Assembly: GCA_017546505.1 (NCBI GenBank)
Contig: JAFYWV010000070.1
Location: forward strand, 1 to 32,391
Origin: Bacteroidaceae bacterium
GTDB taxonomy: Bacteria; Bacteroidota; Bacteroidia; Bacteroidales; Bacteroidaceae
DNA length: 32,391 nt
Reading direction: 5' to 3'
Shown: one piece after another, positions 23,754 to 32,376 of the stretch
Position numbering within the stretch: position 1 is the stretch's first letter
Layout of the letters: the number at the start of each line of letters is the position of its first letter
Position numbers and translations under genes: made by a program
Notes under the pieces: generated by a model
The model's database searches: none
Told to the model about the DNA's origin: nothing
What the model saw: only the letters and a program-made list of their open reading frames with translations

Positions 23754-23892
23754 GAATCATACCACAAAGAATAAAAACCATATTTTTTACTCCGCCACTC
23801 TATTGTGTGTAGGAACAGGTTTACCGGCAAAAAAGGGGAGGAACGCAATTACTAATAATAAAAGTTAAATCTTCACCAAGAAAGCATTTTTA

Positions 23893-23935
23893 ATTTCTAA
23901 AACTTTAGATTTCTAAAACCTTCGTTATATATTTG
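23893..23935 (+). promoter_or_regulatory. Promoter with candidate BlaI operator
   Basis: The -7 element TATATTTG (23928-23935) lies 21 bases before the blaI-type ATG. Its -33 region is covered by three half-sites in alternating orientation: TCTAAA (23896-23901), TTTAGA (23904-23909) and TCTAAA (23912-23917), each separated by 2 bases. They form two overlapping 14-bp dyads within a repeated ATTTCTAAAAC (23893-23903, 23909-23919). BlaI/MecI repressors bind as dimers to dyads overlapping their own promoter, so this is the best operator candidate. Confidence 0.6.
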
Positions 23936-23955
23936 CACCATCAACAATATATACA

Positions 23956-24336
23956 ATGAAGAAATTCGATACACTTACAAAAGCTGAAATGCAGGTTATG
24001 AATGCACTGTGGGATATGCCTGATGGCGGTTGCATACACGACATCATTGAAAAGTACCCCGAGCCCAAACCAGCCTACACCACCGTTTCAACATTCCTCA
24101 AGATTCTATTGAACAAAGGATTCGTAGAATACCGCAAGCTCAGCGGCAAGACGCACACCTACTACCCCCTCATCAGTCGCGAAGCCTACACCGGCCAGGT
24201 GATGAAGGATGTGAAAGAGTCGTTCTTCGGAGGCTCAGGCTCGTCAATGGTGAAGTTCTTTGCACAGAACGAGAAACTGACCGAGGATGACATCAAGGAA
24301 CTGTTGGAGATAATCAAATCAAGCGAAAACAGATAA
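23956..24336 (+). CDS. BlaI/MecI-family transcriptional repressor
   Basis: 126 aa, the normal family length. The winged helix occupies residues 5-75 (LTKAEMQVMNALWDMPDGGCIHDIIEKYPEPKPAYTTVSTFLKILLNKGFVEYRKLSGKTHTYYPLIS); the recognition helix lies in the AYTTVSTFLKIL segment. The C-terminal half is the dimerisation helix region, where related repressors are cut during induction. It would bind the half-sites across its own promoter and be relieved by the M56 peptidase two genes downstream. First gene of a four-gene operon with 10-, 7- and 11-base gaps. Confidence 0.93.
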   Translation: MKKFDTLTKAEMQVMNALWDMPDGGCIHDIIEKYPEPKPAYTTVSTFLKILLNKGFVEYRKLSGKTHTYYPLISREAYTGQVMKDVKESFFGGSGSSMVKFFAQNEKLTEDDIKELLEIIKSSENR

Positions 24337-24346
24337 TTAAAGAACA

Positions 24347-25495
24347 ATGAACACGGTTTCACGCTTCACTACACTTTTTCTTCTTGTTGCATTGACGCAC
24401 TTTGCAGCCTTTGCACAAAAGGCAACTGTTGCAGACAGAGAAAAACTCATCGAGCTCTCTCTTGGCAATACTGAAGGAGTATATTCCAAGGAACTCGACT
24501 TCAACGAGTTTTTCACCGGCGCCACAATCACAGCAAAGGTGAAGGCAAACAAAGAGGGAGAAGCCACAAGAATCAATATCACAAAGTGCAGACTATCCAC
24601 ATTGGGGAACAGTGACGAGAAATCCTTTAACAGCGCAAAAAAGCTACTGAAAGAGAACTGCAAGAACATCATCGCCGATAAAGAATGGAACCGCGGCAAG
24701 AACAGTTGCCGCATAATTTACAAAGCCGGCAAAACGCAAAAGGCAAAAAAAACGAAGATTTGTGAAGATATCCAATCAATAATCAACGCTCACATTACAG
24801 ACGAAAAAAGGAGAGAGATTTATGGCATAAACGGCAGCGCGTTCATAAATGCGAAAATAGACCACGAAGGTAAAATATACGATACCGAATACATTGGTTG
24901 CATAATTTGGGACACAAGGTGGCAGACTGCCCGCCGCAGCAACATAAACAGCTTGCACATTGCTGTAGGATCAAATTCCATTACAAGCATCAGACTGCGC
25001 CCCGACTATTCAAGCACTGAATACAAAGCGGTGGAGAAAGCAAGAAAACTCCTGAAGAACACAGCCAAAAGCATTGGAAAGGAGTTGGAAAGTAAATATT
25101 TTCCCACAGCATCAAAGGAGAATATATGCATTGAGGTAAACATAAACGGATACGATGTTGACATTGAGCAAAGCGAGCCGGAGTACCCCGACGGTTATAA
25201 GGCTCTAAAGAACATATATGTCGAAGAGTTGAATAATGACAGGACTATTTCACGCAACAACATAAAAGGATACATAGACATCTATCTGAAGATTAAAAAG
25301 AGCGGTAAAGCCATATTCTACTCTGCTAACCCGGAAATCTCAAGCACAAACGGCAAAAACAGCGAAAGTAAAATTATAAAAGAGATTATAGAGTGTTTGA
25401 AAAAGACAACCCAAAAGATACCACGCTGGACACCGGCAACATTCGACGGCAAGGAGATCGAGAAAATTGCCCGCTTGCGTATTGAACTGAAATAA
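24347..25495 (+). CDS. Secreted protein with C-terminal TonB-C-like domain, in BlaI/M56 operon
   Basis: 382 aa with signal peptide MNTVSRFTTLFLLVALTHFAAFAQ and no other membrane segment, so periplasmic or surface. Two or three segments share a beta-alpha-beta plan: TGATITAKVKANKEGEATRINITKC (about 58-80), GSAFINAKIDHEGKIYDTEYIGC (about 165-190) and GYIDIYLKIKKSGKAIFYSANP...KKTTQKIPRWTPATFDGKEI (about 305-375). The last one resembles the TonB C-terminal domain, including the P-x-W-x-PA-x-x-x-GK-x-I ending. It lacks the N-terminal anchor and proline-rich stretch of true TonB. Position between the repressor and the peptidase suggests a partner or sensor subunit; function unknown. Confidence 0.8.
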   Translation: MNTVSRFTTLFLLVALTHFAAFAQKATVADREKLIELSLGNTEGVYSKELDFNEFFTGATITAKVKANKEGEATRINITKCRLSTLGNSDEKSFNSAKKLLKENCKNIIADKEWNRGKNSCRIIYKAGKTQKAKKTKICEDIQSIINAHITDEKRREIYGINGSAFINAKIDHEGKIYDTEYIGCIIWDTRWQTARRSNINSLHIAVGSNSITSIRLRPDYSSTEYKAVEKARKLLKNTAKSIGKELESKYFPTASKENICIEVNINGYDVDIEQSEPEYPDGYKALKNIYVEELNNDRTISRNNIKGYIDIYLKIKKSGKAIFYSANPEISSTNGKNSESKIIKEIIECLKKTTQKIPRWTPATFDGKEIEKIARLRIELK

Positions 25496-25502
25496 AAAAG
25501 CT

Positions 25503-26960
25503 ATGACAAGCATACTCACCTACATACTGAAATGGGCGTTTGGCCTGGCGGTACTCTACTTGCCGTTCGCACTTTTGCTTCGCAAGGAGACATTCGCCAC
25601 GCTCAACCGCAGGCTACTGCTGTGTATAATCATAGCCTCGGCACTGCTACCATTTATCATTGTAAGCTACCCGGTGGAAATAGAACTGCCGGCAGAGATT
25701 GCAGGAACAACTGTTGTAAACGACACAGAAACAACTGTGCCGACAATGCCGGTTGCCACTACAGCAAGTATTGGACGGATTATAACCACACGCAACATAT
25801 TCATATTATACAGCACGGGCGTTATTGTGAGCGCGCTGTTTTTTGCAACAAGCCTCATCGGGGCAATACGCAGCATAAAACGCGGAACATTATGGATTGA
25901 CAGGCAGAGGAGAATGACCATCTATTGCCACGCAGGTGACACAGCGCCATTCAGCCTTTTCAGAAATGTCGTAATCTCCCAACGCGACTACGATGAGTGC
26001 GGAAAGGAGATACTGTTGCACGAAGAGGGGCACATCAAACGTAGGCACTCATACGATATGCTACTCATCAGCATTGTAAAGGCACTGCAATGGTTCAACC
26101 CGTTCATCTATCTTTTGGCAAACGATATCAAGGAGATACACGAATACGAGGCCGACAGATATGTGCTGCAAAGGAGTGGCAACACGCAGGCCTACCAAAT
26201 GCTGATACTCAAGAAAGCCATCGGCAACATTCCGTTCCCATTGGCAAACAGTTTCAGTCAAAGCCACGTACGCAAACGAATAAAGATGATGTCACGCAAA
26301 GAGAGCAGCTACGGCAAACGTTGCAAGTGGCTCTATCTGTTACCTGTTTCGGCAGCCTACATTGGTGCATTTGCACAGCCCGAATACATATATACCACAC
26401 CACCAAAAGCAACATCACCCGAAAGTTTCCTGCCGCAACAAAAAATAGACAGTGAAGAAACAGCTATGCAAGCTGCAATCTGTTTGCCGGCAGCCGGCAA
26501 AGCAACCATAGCCTATGAAAAGACCCCGTACAAACAACTGCCGAAGGAGATTGCAAGAATTGAGCCACCCGAGATTGAAGAGGAAAAGGCAGTCGCCGGC
26601 AAGTACATTGAATATATAGATATAGAAAGTTCAACAATAAACGATGCACTGAAGATGAACGGTATAAAAAAGTGCGATATCATAATATGTTTCACAACAG
26701 GAAAGGCAGGCATAGCAAGTAATATAAACATCATAAGTTGCAATGTCACTGCACCCGGCAACACCACCCCAACCGACATTGAGCAGATAAAGACAACTGC
26801 CACTGCAGCAGCCATCGGAAACATTGCCCGCAAGCATTGGCACGCTGAACACAAAACGCAATACGATGCACACATAATATACCACTACGGCCCATCAATG
26901 GAAATTGCAGGCAACAATGCACTACTGCCGCTGATGGCCGGCGCAACAGCAATCAGATAA
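25503..26960 (+). CDS. M56 (BlaR1/MecR1-like) membrane metallopeptidase with non-penicillin-binding C-terminus
   Basis: 485 aa. Membrane helices at about 5-27, 36-57, 97-120 and 281-298. Between helices 3 and 4 lies the cytosolic zinc peptidase: H173-E-E-G-H177 plus the E214-x-x-A-D motif (HEYEADRYVL), so all three zinc ligands are present. In BlaR1 this domain inactivates BlaI after the sensor binds a beta-lactam. Here the exported C-terminus (about 300-485) has no penicillin-binding S-x-x-K domain; instead it ends in a TonB-C-like stretch (IKKCDIIICFTTGKAGIASNINIISC...ARKHWHAEHKTQYDAHIIYHYGP). The signal it senses is therefore something else. Seven bases after the secreted protein gene. Confidence 0.9.
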   Translation: MTSILTYILKWAFGLAVLYLPFALLLRKETFATLNRRLLLCIIIASALLPFIIVSYPVEIELPAEIAGTTVVNDTETTVPTMPVATTASIGRIITTRNIFILYSTGVIVSALFFATSLIGAIRSIKRGTLWIDRQRRMTIYCHAGDTAPFSLFRNVVISQRDYDECGKEILLHEEGHIKRRHSYDMLLISIVKALQWFNPFIYLLANDIKEIHEYEADRYVLQRSGNTQAYQMLILKKAIGNIPFPLANSFSQSHVRKRIKMMSRKESSYGKRCKWLYLLPVSAAYIGAFAQPEYIYTTPPKATSPESFLPQQKIDSEETAMQAAICLPAAGKATIAYEKTPYKQLPKEIARIEPPEIEEEKAVAGKYIEYIDIESSTINDALKMNGIKKCDIIICFTTGKAGIASNINIISCNVTAPGNTTPTDIEQIKTTATAAAIGNIARKHWHAEHKTQYDAHIIYHYGPSMEIAGNNALLPLMAGATAIR

Positions 26961-26971
26961 CACCATACCCA

Positions 26972-29900
26972 ATGAAACGTACAACCATAATACTTTTATT
27001 GCTCACAACACTGTTGCAAGGTACTCTTGCACAGACGGCAGGCAATGGCGAGGCACCACGCAACACCCTCGACAACATCATCATACGCACAGCCATAAAA
27101 CAGAGCCTCTTCCCCGAGGAACGTGTCTATCTACATTTTGACAACACAGCCTACTACCTTGGCGAGACCATCTGGTTCAAGGCATACGTGATGAGCGGTG
27201 TGAACGACGAACCCACCACAATGAGCCGCGTGCTGTATGTTGAATTGGTATCACCCGAGGGCTACGTTGTAAAGACCGACAAATACAGGATAGGGAACGA
27301 CGGCAGCTGCCACGGTTCATTCGAACTTACTCCGTTGCTGCTGTCGGGCTACTACGAGGTACGCGCCTACACTCGATATATGCTCAACCGCGGCAAGGAG
27401 GCCATCTTCAGCCGTGTATTCCCCATCTTCGACAAGGTCAATGCCGACAATTGGGACTTCAAGAATATGCTGGACCGCCGCAGGGCATTCCTTGTAGACG
27501 TTGAAGAGAACGACAGCCTCACCGGCCTCGACCGCGAAGTCAAGTGGGTGAACAGCGAATTGCCACCGTGCGATCTGCACTTCTACCCCGAAGGTGGACA
27601 CCTTGTAAATGGCATTGAAAGCACCGTGGCATACGAGGTCTTCGGCAACGACGGCATTAACAGCGAGCAGAGTATCACCATCACCGCCGACGGCAAGCCG
27701 TTGCTCACCTCCACCCCGGAGCACCTGGGAAAAGGGACATTCACCATCACCCCACACAAAGATGTAAAGTACAGGGCTATACTGAAACAGGGCAAAAAAG
27801 AGAAGAAATTCGACCTGCCCGACATTGAGGAGGAGGGAGCAACCATTGATGTTACAGAAACAGACGGAACATTCTACATAACCACCCGCAACAACCTGAA
27901 GAGAGAGTGTGAAATGGGGTGTGCCATAGTGCGCCGTGGTAAGGTATTCTTTTATGAACGCTTCTTCTCAAGCGACACCTGCATTCTATTCGCCATTGAC
28001 CGTAACACACTTGGCGAGGGAGTGAACCGCGTGGTGCTGTTTGTGAACGACAGCATTCCGCTTGCCGAACGCCAGTTCTTTGTCACACACCCCGAGCCAC
28101 ATACCGGCGACAACGCAACAGCCAAACTGCTTGTGACAAGCGACGGCGAAGACATCAAGGATTTGGCTCTTGCCCCACACGACAAGATAACGCTCGACAT
28201 TGAGCGCGAGGACGGCAAGCCCATCGGCTACGGTACATTCTCACTCTCTGTGAGCGATGCCGATTACCGTCAGGAGACCTCATATACCTATAATATGTAC
28301 ACATATATGTTGCTGGGCTCCGAGCTCAAGGGCTACATCCCGGATGCCGCACGTTACTTTTCCCCTAAAAATGAAAACCGCAAACGGGAACTGGACCTCA
28401 TAATGCTCACCCACGGCTGGACATCATACGACTGGAGCAAGCTCAGCAGCCGCGATACCAAGCTCGAGCAACCCGTTGAGCGCGGCATAACCATCAAGGG
28501 ACGCTTTGTAAAGAAACGCCCCGACAAACGCTTTGGAAAACTTGACAGGATCATTGTCACCAACAAAGCCGGCGCAAACATAAAGTTCGACATAACATAT
28601 AACGACAGCCTGCTCACCAAATACAAGTTCAACACCGATGCCAACGGCGAGTTCCGCATACAGACACGAGACTTCACCGGCAAGCGCGTGGCAAAGCTGA
28701 TGGGGCCAAGAGTTGCATACGACAGTCGTGACAGCATCTTCGCCTTTGCCCTCGACCGCTACTTCTCGCCCGGGATGCGCCTCTACCACTATTGGGAGCG
28801 CAACACCGGAATGCCCACTACACAGGAACGCCTTGCTGCTTTTAGGGACAGCATCATCAAGGTACACCCCTTCGAGTACCTCATCTCGCAGGTGGAGGTT
28901 GTGTCGAAAAAGAAACGCGAGGCCAACTACCGCCCGCCACGCAGCGAAATGCGCCTTGATTTCCTTGACGAGTGGGAATATGCCCAGGATGTTACTTACC
29001 TGTGCAACGAGAAATCGTCCTACTACAGCGGCAACCAGTGGCAATACGACTTTACAGGCTCAAACGAATTTACGAACTATACCCCCACAGCAACCATCGG
29101 AGGTTCCGAAACCCTTTCGACACTGGATCGTGCCGTGATGGCAGGAAGTGGCATATACAGCAACTCATTCAACGGGTTCAAGCGCGAAATGGGCAGCGGA
29201 TTCCGTACCAACAACGACGGCCGCTACAGCATCAACGACCCTGCATTCTACAACACACTCACCGCAGCCGATATTCTGCGCAGTGCATTCTGGCGCCACA
29301 ACCTCAACTGGTGCTACTGGATACAGTCTATGGTCATCAACGGCGAATACAGTTCACAAAGTACTCCTGTACCCGACATAGAATATCTCAAGGGCATTGA
29401 GCCACGCAAAATGATGAACTTCAAGGAAATCATCATCCGCTCCGACGAGAACACCCGCAAACAGTTTGGTGGAGGAAGACGCATACTCAAGGCAACGCAC
29501 AAGAATAAAGGCAACATCGACTACGGAAGCTACTACGAAGGATTCTATGGACAGATGGGAATAAACTCAAGAAACGGCAGCATTGACGATGCGCCCGATG
29601 CTGCCATACTAAATGACCGCATCAATTCACTATCACACGATGCCATCCCTAACTATGTGGCCTGCTTTATCCCGAACAGCGAAGAAGACGAACAGAATGG
29701 CCTTATACCCGAATACACCCAACGCGGCACCACACGCTATACAATGGTCTATGGTTACACCGAGAGCAAGCAGTTCTACTCGCCCGACTACAGCACCGTC
29801 AAACCAGACGCCACCACTGCCGACTACCGCCGCACACTCCTGTGGTCGCCAAACATCACAGCAAAGAACGGCCGCCTCACCGTCGAACTCTACAACAGCA

Positions 29901-30889
29901 CATCGGCAAAGAGAATTGCTGTCGACGTTGAGGGATACGCTGGCGGCACATTCTACAGCAGCAGCGACATTGCAACACGCGGTGCCGAGAATAAAAATAG
30001 CGGCATTGACCAGCTGACCATATATGAGACACCTGTTGTTGGAATACACAACATTGACATTCTCGCCTTCTGTTTCAAGAAAACCGAGGAAGGCCGCAGT
30101 TTCTTCAAGCACAAAATGTTCGACGAGGCATTCACCTGCTTTAACGAAGCTTCGGCACTTGGCTACCCCGACGCCATCTACAACAGCGCCGTATGCTATA
30201 TGAACGGCTACGGCGTAGAATGCGATACAATCGAGGGATTCAGGCGATTCCGCCGTGCTGCCAACACAGGACACGACAGGGCACTCTACAACCTTGCCAC
30301 CTGTTATCTTGCCGGCATAGGCACAGCAAAGAATGACAGCCTTGCATTCATCTGCTACAAGAGAGCCGGCCAGGCCGGATATGCCAAGGCGCTCACCACC
30401 GTTGCCGACTGCTACCTCACAGGACACGGCACAGCATTGGACAGCACAATGGCCTATGAATACTACAGCCGCGCAGCCGCAAAGAACGAGCCACGCGCCC
30501 TCTACACCATTGCACAGAAAACCGCAAAGTCCGACTCTCTGCGACAGTTAAGTCAAAAGCAGCTACGCAAGCAAAGCACCATCGGCTACTACCAAAAAGC
30601 CGCAAAGCTTGGCAATGCCAATGCACAATACAGGCTCGCCCAATTCTATGAGGATGGCTATTATGTGAGGAAAAGCAAGAAGAAGGCATTTAATTGGTAT
30701 CTGCACGCTGCCAACGGCGGACACCCTGAAGCGGCCGAAAAGGTAGCCCGTATGTACGAAAAAGGCAAAGGGACAAAGCGCGACGACCAAAAAGCCGCCG
30801 CCTGGTACCGTGTAGCACTCGAGCACGGCAGCCAAACAGCAAAGGAAAAAGTCGAATGGTACAATATGTTCAGGTTCTTTAGTGAGTAA
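26972..30889 (+). CDS. Large exported macroglobulin-like (MG2) protein fused to Sel1 repeats
   Basis: 1305 aa with signal peptide MKRTTIILLLLTTLLQGTLAQ. An MG2-like domain lies at about 45-150 (EERVYLHFDNTAYYLGETIWFKAYVMSG, GSFELTPLLLSGYYEVRAYTRYML). A carboxypeptidase-regulatory-like segment occurs near 505-570 (GITIKGRFVKKRPDKRFGKL...DANGEFRIQTRDF), then a long region with several more sandwich-like stretches. At about 1040-1300 there are five Sel1/TPR-type repeats, e.g. ALYNLATCYLAGIGTAKNDSLAFICYKRAGQAGYAK. MG2 proteins of this size are common in Bacteroidetes; a C-terminal Sel1 array is unusual to me. There is no lipobox or membrane anchor. Probably the effector of the BlaI operon, acting in the periplasm or at the surface. 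Confidence 0.88.
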   Translation: MKRTTIILLLLTTLLQGTLAQTAGNGEAPRNTLDNIIIRTAIKQSLFPEERVYLHFDNTAYYLGETIWFKAYVMSGVNDEPTTMSRVLYVELVSPEGYVVKTDKYRIGNDGSCHGSFELTPLLLSGYYEVRAYTRYMLNRGKEAIFSRVFPIFDKVNADNWDFKNMLDRRRAFLVDVEENDSLTGLDREVKWVNSELPPCDLHFYPEGGHLVNGIESTVAYEVFGNDGINSEQSITITADGKPLLTSTPEHLGKGTFTITPHKDVKYRAILKQGKKEKKFDLPDIEEEGATIDVTETDGTFYITTRNNLKRECEMGCAIVRRGKVFFYERFFSSDTCILFAIDRNTLGEGVNRVVLFVNDSIPLAERQFFVTHPEPHTGDNATAKLLVTSDGEDIKDLALAPHDKITLDIEREDGKPIGYGTFSLSVSDADYRQETSYTYNMYTYMLLGSELKGYIPDAARYFSPKNENRKRELDLIMLTHGWTSYDWSKLSSRDTKLEQPVERGITIKGRFVKKRPDKRFGKLDRIIVTNKAGANIKFDITYNDSLLTKYKFNTDANGEFRIQTRDFTGKRVAKLMGPRVAYDSRDSIFAFALDRYFSPGMRLYHYWERNTGMPTTQERLAAFRDSIIKVHPFEYLISQVEVVSKKKREANYRPPRSEMRLDFLDEWEYAQDVTYLCNEKSSYYSGNQWQYDFTGSNEFTNYTPTATIGGSETLSTLDRAVMAGSGIYSNSFNGFKREMGSGFRTNNDGRYSINDPAFYNTLTAADILRSAFWRHNLNWCYWIQSMVINGEYSSQSTPVPDIEYLKGIEPRKMMNFKEIIIRSDENTRKQFGGGRRILKATHKNKGNIDYGSYYEGFYGQMGINSRNGSIDDAPDAAILNDRINSLSHDAIPNYVACFIPNSEEDEQNGLIPEYTQRGTTRYTMVYGYTESKQFYSPDYSTVKPDATTADYRRTLLWSPNITAKNGRLTVELYNSTSAKRIAVDVEGYAGGTFYSSSDIATRGAENKNSGIDQLTIYETPVVGIHNIDILAFCFKKTEEGRSFFKHKMFDEAFTCFNEASALGYPDAIYNSAVCYMNGYGVECDTIEGFRRFRRAANTGHDRALYNLATCYLAGIGTAKNDSLAFICYKRAGQAGYAKALTTVADCYLTGHGTALDSTMAYEYYSRAAAKNEPRALYTIAQKTAKSDSLRQLSQKQLRKQSTIGYYQKAAKLGNANAQYRLAQFYEDGYYVRKSKKKAFNWYLHAANGGHPEAAEKVARMYEKGKGTKRDDQKAAAWYRVALEHGSQTAKEKVEWYNMFRFFSE

Positions 30890-30972: not shown

Positions 30973-31716
30973 ATGAATAAACTAAAATTTATTGCATTAT
31001 TGACAATCTTCTCTATGTCGTGTCTGAATTCATCGGCTCAGTCTGAGTACAAGGTTTTTGAAAAGCAGAAAAAGTTGACCGAAGCTCGCAACAGGCATAA
31101 ACCCCAAGGTGTAAGCAGAGGCTTCAAGAAACTATATAAAAAAGAATATGGTTTGAGTAAAGTACAGTTGCCTTTCAACTCTTTTACAAGCATTTATCCA
31201 GGATATGAATTTATTTTGCTACACAGAAATGACTATATAGGAACTATGAATAACCCGATTGCTTTGGCCTCTTCGGACGGTGATTGTATAGTCTATATTC
31301 CGGTTATGAGCAAGTATGCCGATGCTGATGCTTGGATGATACCCAACCTCAAGAAAGGAGTTGCCGTCGATGTCAAATGCAACAAGGATGATATCAACTA
31401 TTGGCAAGTTCGTGTTACCGAGAATGATGTTAACAGAATAATTGATGAGAATGTAACGGTGTACGAAGGTGACTCGCACACCGCACAATGTGAAGCCGAT
31501 GTAATGCTGCTATGCAAATTCCCCAACAGAGAAAAAATCTGCACTTATGGTAAGGGGGGATATATCTCCATTCACGAGGAGTACCCCCATTACTATACAC
31601 TTGATATTTACAAGGAGGGCCACAAACCCATTAAAATGCATTTGTTTGTTAACGACAATGGCTCTGACAAAATAGACAGCTACCTGTCGGATATATGTGG
31701 CTCTTTGAAGTTTTAG
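30973..31716 (+). CDS. Secreted protein of unknown function
   Basis: 247 aa. The N-terminus MNKLKFIALLTIFSMSCLNSSAQ can be read as a signal peptide cut after SSAQ, as usual in this phylum, or as a lipobox (SMSC) giving a lipoprotein. The mature part starts basic (KVFEKQKKLTEARNRHKPQGVSRGFKKLYKKEYG) and then becomes mixed, with IALASSDGDCIVYIPVMSKYADADAWMIPNL and VTVYEGDSHTAQCEADVMLLCKFPN. I recognise no domain or catalytic motif. It lies 83 bases after the MG2-Sel1 gene in the same direction. AT-rich codon use differs from the preceding gene. A truncated insertion sequence follows. Confidence 0.75.
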   Translation: MNKLKFIALLTIFSMSCLNSSAQSEYKVFEKQKKLTEARNRHKPQGVSRGFKKLYKKEYGLSKVQLPFNSFTSIYPGYEFILLHRNDYIGTMNNPIALASSDGDCIVYIPVMSKYADADAWMIPNLKKGVAVDVKCNKDDINYWQVRVTENDVNRIIDENVTVYEGDSHTAQCEADVMLLCKFPNREKICTYGKGGYISIHEEYPHYYTLDIYKEGHKPIKMHLFVNDNGSDKIDSYLSDICGSLKF

Positions 31717-31749: not shown

Positions 31750-32376
31750 TTATAAAAAACGTGAGTTCGATATAATTTTAGAACAAAGAAAGTTGCACGT
31801 CATTGATAAATTCCGCGTCACTTTCAATGGTTCTCTGTCATCAACACCGCCTGTTGTAAAAACAAAATTCAGTATTTCGCCTTTGTCGTTGATTATCAGG
31901 TGCAGTTTGAACCCAAAGAACCACCCCATAGAGCATTTGCCACGACTTGCAAGTCCTTCAAAGGTTCTGTGGATGAGAATACGTTGGTTGCGGCATACAC
32001 GCAAAGGCGTGCTATCCACAAAGCTTATTCCATTACACTCTCCAAGCAATACCTGTTTGATAAAAGCCGTCATCTGCAACAGCACCTCTTTTTCAAGTTC
32101 AACAAAACGGTTATATGAGACTGTTTGGGGAAACAGATGCTTGCAGTGCTTACAGATGTAGTGCAAGTAGTAATGTTTGAAACAGCGGAACCCTCCAGAA
32201 TGGAAGTGTATGAGGATTACGATTATCTCGGCATCGCTCATACGATTGGGCTTGCGTCGGTGGCGCTTGCCATCAACTGGAGCTTCTGGCATTGATTTTT
32301 CTTGCTGCTCATCAAAAAACTTGCAGAATTCATCTGCCAAACAGAAAATTTCAGTAACCTTATCCTCGGAGAACAT
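31750..32376 (-). pseudogene. IS982-family transposase, 3'-truncated
   Basis: 208 codons of a family whose transposases are about 290-300 aa. The N-terminal two thirds are intact and typical: MFSEDKVTEIFCLADEFCKFF, HRRKPNRMSDAEIIVILIHFHSGGFRCFKHYYLHY, SYNRFVELE, FVDSTPLRVCRNQRI (first catalytic Asp), HRTFEGLASRGKCSMGWFFGFKLHLIINDKGEILNFVFTTGGVDDREPL (second acidic site). After DDREPL, at about position 31830, similarity ends and unrelated residues follow; the segment carrying the D-K-G-Y motif and last catalytic residue is missing. A neighbouring frame continues SDAEFINDV for a few codons, so a frameshift near the break is possible. The element would be inactive. The other end lies beyond the window. 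Confidence 0.85.

Follow-up and report, generated by a model that had tools for sequence, protein, structure and literature searches.

In Staphylococcus, the BlaR1-BlaI and MecR1-MecI switches each pair a BlaI-family repressor with an M56 gluzincin that carries an HEXXH...ExxxD zinc site. In the excerpted text of PMC9834060, the site in BlaR1 is HEXXH...E242XXXD, autocleavage at Ser283-Phe284 is described together with Arg293/Arg294, and BlaI is cut at Asn101-Phe102. Here we analyse a related four-gene operon of a gut Bacteroidaceae bacterium, in a window that is the entire 32,391-base contig JAFYWV010000070.1 (assembly GCA_017546505.1; genome 2.6 Mb). The genes all lie on the + strand, as do the features within and before the operon given below. 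They encode a BlaI/MecI-type winged-helix repressor (BlaI; 126 aa; 23956-24336; assigned by Pfam and structure matches), a secreted protein, here called SEC, with a signal peptide by eye and three TonB/TolA-C-type modules by fold (382 aa; 24347-25495), an M56 (BlaR1-type) membrane metallopeptidase recognized by Pfam (485 aa; 25503-26960), and MG2-Sel1, an exported protein with a macroglobulin-type core and C-terminal Sel1 repeats (1305 aa; 26972-30889). The intergenic gaps of 10, 7 and 11 bases agree with a sequence-only reading of the window made earlier; the start it gave, 23893, is the first base of an operator/promoter motif and not a gene start. We propose that the locus is a self-regulated BlaI-M56 switch with a macroglobulin-type envelope protein as its output, and we put the probability of this at about 0.52. 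The operon looks switchable, a version of the penicillin switch of staphylococci in which the sensor is another and the product resembles a protease trap.

The regulatory proteins resemble their staphylococcal counterparts in several ways. BlaI matches Pfam Penicillinase_R (2.9e-29) and aligns over its full length with MecI and BlaI structures (4e-10 to 3e-7), and 17/17 quartet-type BlaI rows have, as in BlaR1-BlaI, Phe in position P1' of the known BlaI cleavage site. The Pfam Peptidase_M56 match (1.7e-12) covers residues 167-262 only, and the family is found in 15/15 M56 rows. The zinc site is HEEGH at residues 173-177 (26019-26033), with the third ligand, E214, in EYEAD; H173, E174, H177, E214 and D218 are invariant in the 15 rows, so the complete zinc site noted from the sequence holds across the orthologues. 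Hydropathy gives transmembrane helices TM1-TM3 and a re-entrant-type helix, with TM4 below threshold; the TM2-TM3 loop, some 40 residues long by the same measure, is another likeness to BlaR1. Near the place of BlaR1 autocleavage, Phe251, Arg257 and Arg259 are invariant. We had considered Ser250-Phe251 as the equivalent of the autocleavage site and have withdrawn it: Ser250 is present in 2/15 rows, and a BLAST-type alignment, uncertain in this stretch, puts BlaR1 Phe284 opposite a residue four beyond Phe251. A PDB profile search with the M56 alignment gave no match.

The sensor and the product differ from those of BlaR1. The match of the M56 protein to the BlaR1 structure 8exp is confined to residues 164-279, and the exported C-terminal end (about 293-485) is divergent. 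There is no SxxK or K[TS]G motif after residue 293, and no penicillin-binding family was found in any of the 15 rows at E 0.01. Likewise, no beta-lactamase is present in the operon or among the 17 window open reading frames (ORFs) scanned, some further window ORFs being outside the scan. The sequence-only reading had pointed out both absences. Unlike BlaR1, the M56 protein has a probably TonB_C-like exported end and is accompanied by a separate secreted TonB_C protein, and the output of the locus is a macroglobulin-type protein rather than a beta-lactamase or PBP2a. Because the sensor and the regulated gene differ, the locus is outside BlaR1 proper; distant beta-lactamase or PBP2a targets lie beyond the scan, though the operator occurs once in its own genome.

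The region 23893-23935 is a predicted BlaI operator overlying the operon promoter. A motif search finds two dyads (TCTAAA-AC-TTTAGA, then TTCTAAAA...TTCG) that run into a box, TATATTTG, which we take to be a Bacteroidetes-type -7 box. Upstream of quartet-type BlaI genes the double dyad, here 23893-23918, is followed by this box (23928-23935). The operator core (23897-23918) is the sole site in its own genome at <=2 mismatches. Searched at the same stringency in the 44 genomes of the genus, CTAAAANTTTAGANTTCTAAAA is found at 18 distinct places (19 rows, one palindromic place being counted twice) in 16 genomes, and the controls gave 0. Fifteen of these places precede the BlaI-M56-MG2-Sel1 operon and two precede operons of a leucine-rich repeat (LRR) gene and an MG2-Sel1 paralogue (G163 and G164); the remaining match, in G157, is probably due to chance. 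The LRR gene is LRR_5 by Pfam in G163 and is judged by like size and sequence start in G164. Thus, the same motif marks two MG2-Sel1 genes in these genomes. In G183 and G166 a further gene sits between the operator and BlaI (LRR_5 by Pfam in G183, of like size in G166). Such LRR_5 genes are of the BspA surface-protein type; the window locus itself has none. Of three LRR and MG2-Sel1 paralogue loci (L216, L217 and L218), those of G163 and G164 have the operator, and that of G116 keeps a 94-aa LRR remnant and no operator.

Related operators extend beyond this pattern. The operators of five quartet-type loci (G101, G168, G171, G176 and G185) are more diverged and are missed by CTAAAANTTTAGANTTCTAAAA. 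A position weight matrix trained on 14 operators, which it re-finds, gives independent support only through rows outside the training set, including L040, L178, L179, L213, L214 and L120; the last belongs to a different genus, and its BlaI gene is preceded by a similar operator. Most of the remaining BlaI genes in the genus are preceded by boxes like AACTA-N7-TAGTT, in contrast to the CTAAAA-type operator here. A conserved element, TTACTAATAATNNANGTTAAA (23849-23869), lies 27 bases before the operator core and 23 bases before the 43-base motif. It has 27 sites in 22/44 genus genomes, compared to 1 control match, and it also precedes MG2-Sel1 paralogues without a BlaI operator in G167:C91 and G183:C5 (L248 and L243). 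Its presence at both operator-bearing and operator-free MG2-Sel1 promoters hints that it might be the site of a second regulator linking MG2-Sel1 genes.

Within the genus, the M56 and MG2-Sel1 genes stay together. M56 orthologues, with 42-100% identity over most of their length, are present in 20/44 genomes, and MG2-Sel1 is directly downstream in 18/18 testable loci, including one with a split MG2 frame (G185). The other two contigs (G154:C117 and G174:C172) end at M56; a second contig of G154 (C116) that carries an M56 tail followed by MG2-Sel1 was left uncounted. A separate scan of GTDB genomes for MG2-Sel1 yielded 38 loci. Those with at least 55% identity have M56 in front, and BlaI too where the contig reaches (L033-L038, L040, L054, L056, L057 and L063; the contigs of L034 and L037 break off at M56). 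L067 departs from this rule: it is an MG2-Sel1 fragment of 173 residues (61% identity) at the end of its contig, and the 8 kb upstream of it contain neither M56 nor BlaI. Homologues with 51% identity or less have neither gene in front. The 13 MG2-Sel1 rows are monophyletic (100/100; tree of 34), and so are the 15 M56 rows (99 by the Shimodaira-Hasegawa-like approximate likelihood ratio test, in a quick tree of 96). The sister group of the M56 clade, with a support of 94 that falls short of the value starred by the tool, is another BlaI-M56 system found in the genus (L166-L171); this has no adjoining MG2 gene and carries a diverged form of the double dyad.

The ratio of nonsynonymous to synonymous substitution rates (dN/dS), each against one near relative, is 0.04 for BlaI, 0.29 for SEC, 0.17 for M56 and 0.09 for MG2-Sel1. 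Based on the conserved gene order and this purifying selection, we conclude that the operon is beyond chance. We encountered all four genes together in a single genus. The earlier reading named, as a result that would refute it, a lack of conservation of MG2-Sel1 and SEC beside BlaI-M56; M56 and MG2-Sel1 stay together, so this check did not refute it, and SEC is the variable member. In 10 loci BlaI, SEC and M56 follow one another directly; in an eleventh (G176) SEC adjoins BlaI on a contig other than that of M56; and SEC is absent from 9/20 loci (G116, G152, G154:C117, G163, G164, G168, G171, G181 and G184; in G152 and G171 this is judged from the distance between operator and M56). The synonymous divergence (dS) of SEC from the G179 copy is only 0.28, compared to 0.74 for the neighbouring BlaI and 0.83 for MG2-Sel1. 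SEC is thus far less diverged than its neighbours, and this stretch may have been exchanged between strains.

The putative output is macroglobulin-type by fold. Pfam recognizes Sel1 in MG2-Sel1 (1.2e-28; repeat region about residues 1068-1293, 30173-30850, by family searches), and its MG2 match (4.8e-06) is below the Pfam cut-off. The predicted structure matches a multi-MG-domain macroglobulin core, in keeping with the macroglobulin-like protein with Sel1 repeats that was originally described. A PDB profile search with the MG2 alignment returned mostly Sel1 and TPR proteins (best 60 of 61 matches). Apart from weak phmmer matches to complement C3 (best E 0.0068), it is thus the fold that connects the protein with macroglobulins. 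Like bacterial and animal alpha-2-macroglobulin and complement C3-C5, as presented in the excerpt of PMC4498604, the protein has a multi-MG core and, ahead of its final matching portion, a disordered insert. This segment, residues 681-760 (29012-29251), lies roughly where the bait region would be and has a predicted local distance difference test score of 25-36 per block of ten residues. Identity to 12 orthologues is 36% over residues 670-765, compared to 67% over residues 31-669 and 766-1000. We infer that the segment could have a bait-like function. Identity in the rows of the fold comparison is 10-17%. Unlike alpha-2-macroglobulin, MG2-Sel1 has no CxEQ thioester (0/26 rows, and absent also from the full window protein) and no Pfam sign of the later A2M domains, and it has Sel1 repeats instead.

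The putative sensor modules are related to TonB C-terminal domains. The exported end of the M56 protein is probably TonB_C-like; Pfam finds TonB_C in 0/15 M56 rows, the window's included, and profile comparison (hhalign) with TonB_C modules gives 90% and 1.8e-6. The comparison profile was built from out-of-genus M56 proteins only, in which 46 TonB_C modules were found (34/77 proteins). The three modules of SEC span residues about 56-126, 162-267 and 307-381. Module 1 is probably related to the exported end of M56 (95%, 2e-8), and module 3 matches the 46 out-of-genus modules (99%, 3e-18). In the window's SEC Pfam finds no family above chance, TonB_C included; it finds TonB_C in 7/10 SEC rows (best 1.4e-6). 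A PDB profile search with the SEC alignment gave no match. The SEC model matches TonB C-terminal domains, and its fold is predicted to be that of TonB/TolA C-termini. The description of SEC as TonB-C-like is thus supported, by fold and by these family rows.

BlaI-M56 pairs with TonB_C modules are not special to this operon. The window's own genome has a second pair (L131, on C63) with an 885-aa M56 protein, three Pfam TonB_C stretches and AACTA-type boxes upstream, and Pfam TonB_C is also found in the M56 protein of L132. Such Bacteroidota pairs share with our locus a BlaI gene directly before M56, an exported end that has TonB_C modules in the pairs and is probably of this type in our locus, and sometimes a close third gene. 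They differ in that the end is much diverged here, about half of the loci add the three-module secreted relative, the operator is of the CTAAAA type, and the third gene is MG2-Sel1. The earlier view that a TonB-C-like end replaces the penicillin sensor is therefore right about the missing sensor, and the replacement itself is common among BlaI-M56 pairs of the family.

Of 151 family genomes, 118 have BlaI, 119 have M56 and 130 have a homologue of MG2-Sel1. We sampled 80 M56 neighbourhoods from a longer list of places, 69 of them outside the genus. Among the latter, an MG2-type gene follows M56 immediately in L071 alone (gap 38 bases); in L073 one lies some genes beyond. The M56 protein of L071 is on the far side of the tree, and we therefore regard it as a separate BlaI-M56-MG2 pairing. 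Chance would place MG2 behind M56 in 0.055 of 72 cases (gene numbers assumed). A close same-strand third gene accompanies 17/72 M56 genes, and in three cases it is BlaI in reverse order (L074, L079 and L085, with gaps of 4-6 bases, all in one other genus). About 10 of the remaining third genes look exported by eye, including TlpA-like, TolB-like, TPR and Porph_ging proteins. MG2-Sel1-type genes also occur in tandem arrays in related genomes (L039, L192 and L193), with five genes, one short, in L039.

We postulate that the operon works in the order of events known for BlaR1. BlaI would bind the operator motif and repress the operon. A periplasmic signal would change the exported end of the M56 protein, either alone or bound to SEC through contacts between TonB_C modules, and M56 would then cut BlaI on the cytoplasmic side, by analogy with BlaR1. 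The operon would be derepressed, along with the BspA-LRR and second MG2-Sel1 operon in two genomes, and the exported macroglobulin-type protein could bind or trap a protease or another envelope-damaging agent. This proposal is supported because the M56-MG2-Sel1 order is invariant in testable loci and each protein forms a single clade, because the operator recurs, twice before second MG2-Sel1 operons, with no control matches, and because of the BlaR1-like zinc site, the SEC and MG2 folds and the recurrence in L071.

Several points weigh against this proposal. BlaI binding to the motif and induction of the operon are deduced from sequence. Unlike in BlaR1, the Ser-Phe pair of autocleavage is not clearly kept in the M56 protein; the probable TonB_C kinship of its exported end, where Pfam gives no TonB_C in any row, comes through profile comparison, and module 2 of SEC has no sequence support (hhalign 1.6%). 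Because SEC is missing in 9/20 loci, it cannot be a required co-sensor. Of the earlier idea that TonB-C-like modules sense and a macroglobulin responds, the folds of SEC and of the macroglobulin-type protein are supported, and SEC varies in presence between loci. Without a CxEQ thioester, the protein is unlikely to trap its target covalently in the classical way. MG2-type genes are many per genome, most of those examined have no adjoining BlaI-M56, and the second association, 1/72 M56 genes, could be due to chance. Lastly, the window's genome and the named relatives are metagenome-assembled genomes; the relatives are Bacteroidaceae or Bacteroidales, mostly titled as ruminant gut samples.

Other functions can be imagined for the same genes. 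The locus might monitor Ton status or outer-membrane assembly, with the TonB_C modules binding TonB boxes or outer-membrane protein peptides and MG2-Sel1 serving as a periplasmic or outer-membrane scaffold or assembly factor and not as a protease trap. The best structural relatives of SEC include receptor-bound TonB C-terminal domains (6i97, 2gsk and 2grx), third genes behind other BlaI-M56 pairs of the family include TlpA-type, TolB-like and TPR proteins, and Sel1 repeats are protein-binding scaffolds. However, a hypervariable, disordered segment in a macroglobulin core is more readily explained as a bait than as part of an assembly factor, and we consider such a monitor possible but rather unlikely. 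A further extension of the switch proposal is a protease-sensing, inducible anti-protease circuit. Thioester-less macroglobulins would be a large unrecognised Bacteroidota family, one member of which, with a bait-like segment and a Sel1 scaffold, would have come under a BlaI-M56 switch in this genus; the TonB_C modules of M56 and of a free secreted partner would report on damage to the envelope or on the macroglobulin's own state, in a trap-sensor feedback loop. We offer this as speculation and think it unlikely as a whole.

It is more doubtful still that MG2-Sel1 is a mere passenger, an MG2 paralogue captured by chance by a self-regulated operon and used for housekeeping surface display. MG2-type proteins are abundant in the family, few have the operator, and the set was met in one genus only, but MG2-Sel1 has been kept over a deep divergence (M56 identities of 42-77%) and under a low dN/dS, and two genomes have the operator in front of a further MG2-Sel1 operon as well. 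It is very improbable that the locus is an ordinary beta-lactam resistance switch of the BlaR1-BlaI kind whose beta-lactamase has been lost or moved elsewhere. The BlaI and M56 halves are true relatives of BlaI and BlaR1, but the BlaR1 match ends before the exported domain and no beta-lactamase was seen among the 17 window ORFs scanned. We reject beta-lactam sensing, given an exported end with neither the active-site motifs nor a penicillin-binding family.

Some observations concern the surroundings of the operon. The M56 tail (26928-26957) reads G-x-T-P-(I/L) in 10/14 rows, and GATAI in the window and L185; codons vary, so the tail is conserved as protein. A 247-aa exported-looking protein without family assignment is encoded behind the operon (30973-31716), as it is in the close relatives L033, L034 and L035 (gap 83 bases in L033 and L035). 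Neither this gene nor SEC had a match in PHROGs, and we dropped a phage origin for them. None of the four operon proteins matched PADLOC anti-phage defence models at E 0.001, and a defence reading was likewise rejected. A piece of an IS982-type transposase (31750-32376) lies at the contig end.

Literature searches on BlaI/M56/TonB in Bacteroidetes and on macroglobulin/Sel1 gave no such operon among the matches listed, in a library from which subscription papers are mostly absent. The only experimental hint that we met is from Porphyromonas gingivalis, in which, according to the excerpted text of PMC10470040, expression of a BlaI/MecI/CopY-family gene changed under hemin and a methylation site changed within the neighbouring M56 gene. 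Among the matches listed, a macroglobulin-type product has not been tied to a BlaI-M56 switch, and structure prediction shows the weak MG2 match of the giant protein here to be a macroglobulin-type fold without the thioester motif. BlaI-M56 pairs are present in most genomes of the family, and the matches listed give no sensed signal for them. With its operator defined, its regulon small and its product recognisable, this locus makes the question of what such pairs sense testable for one of them.

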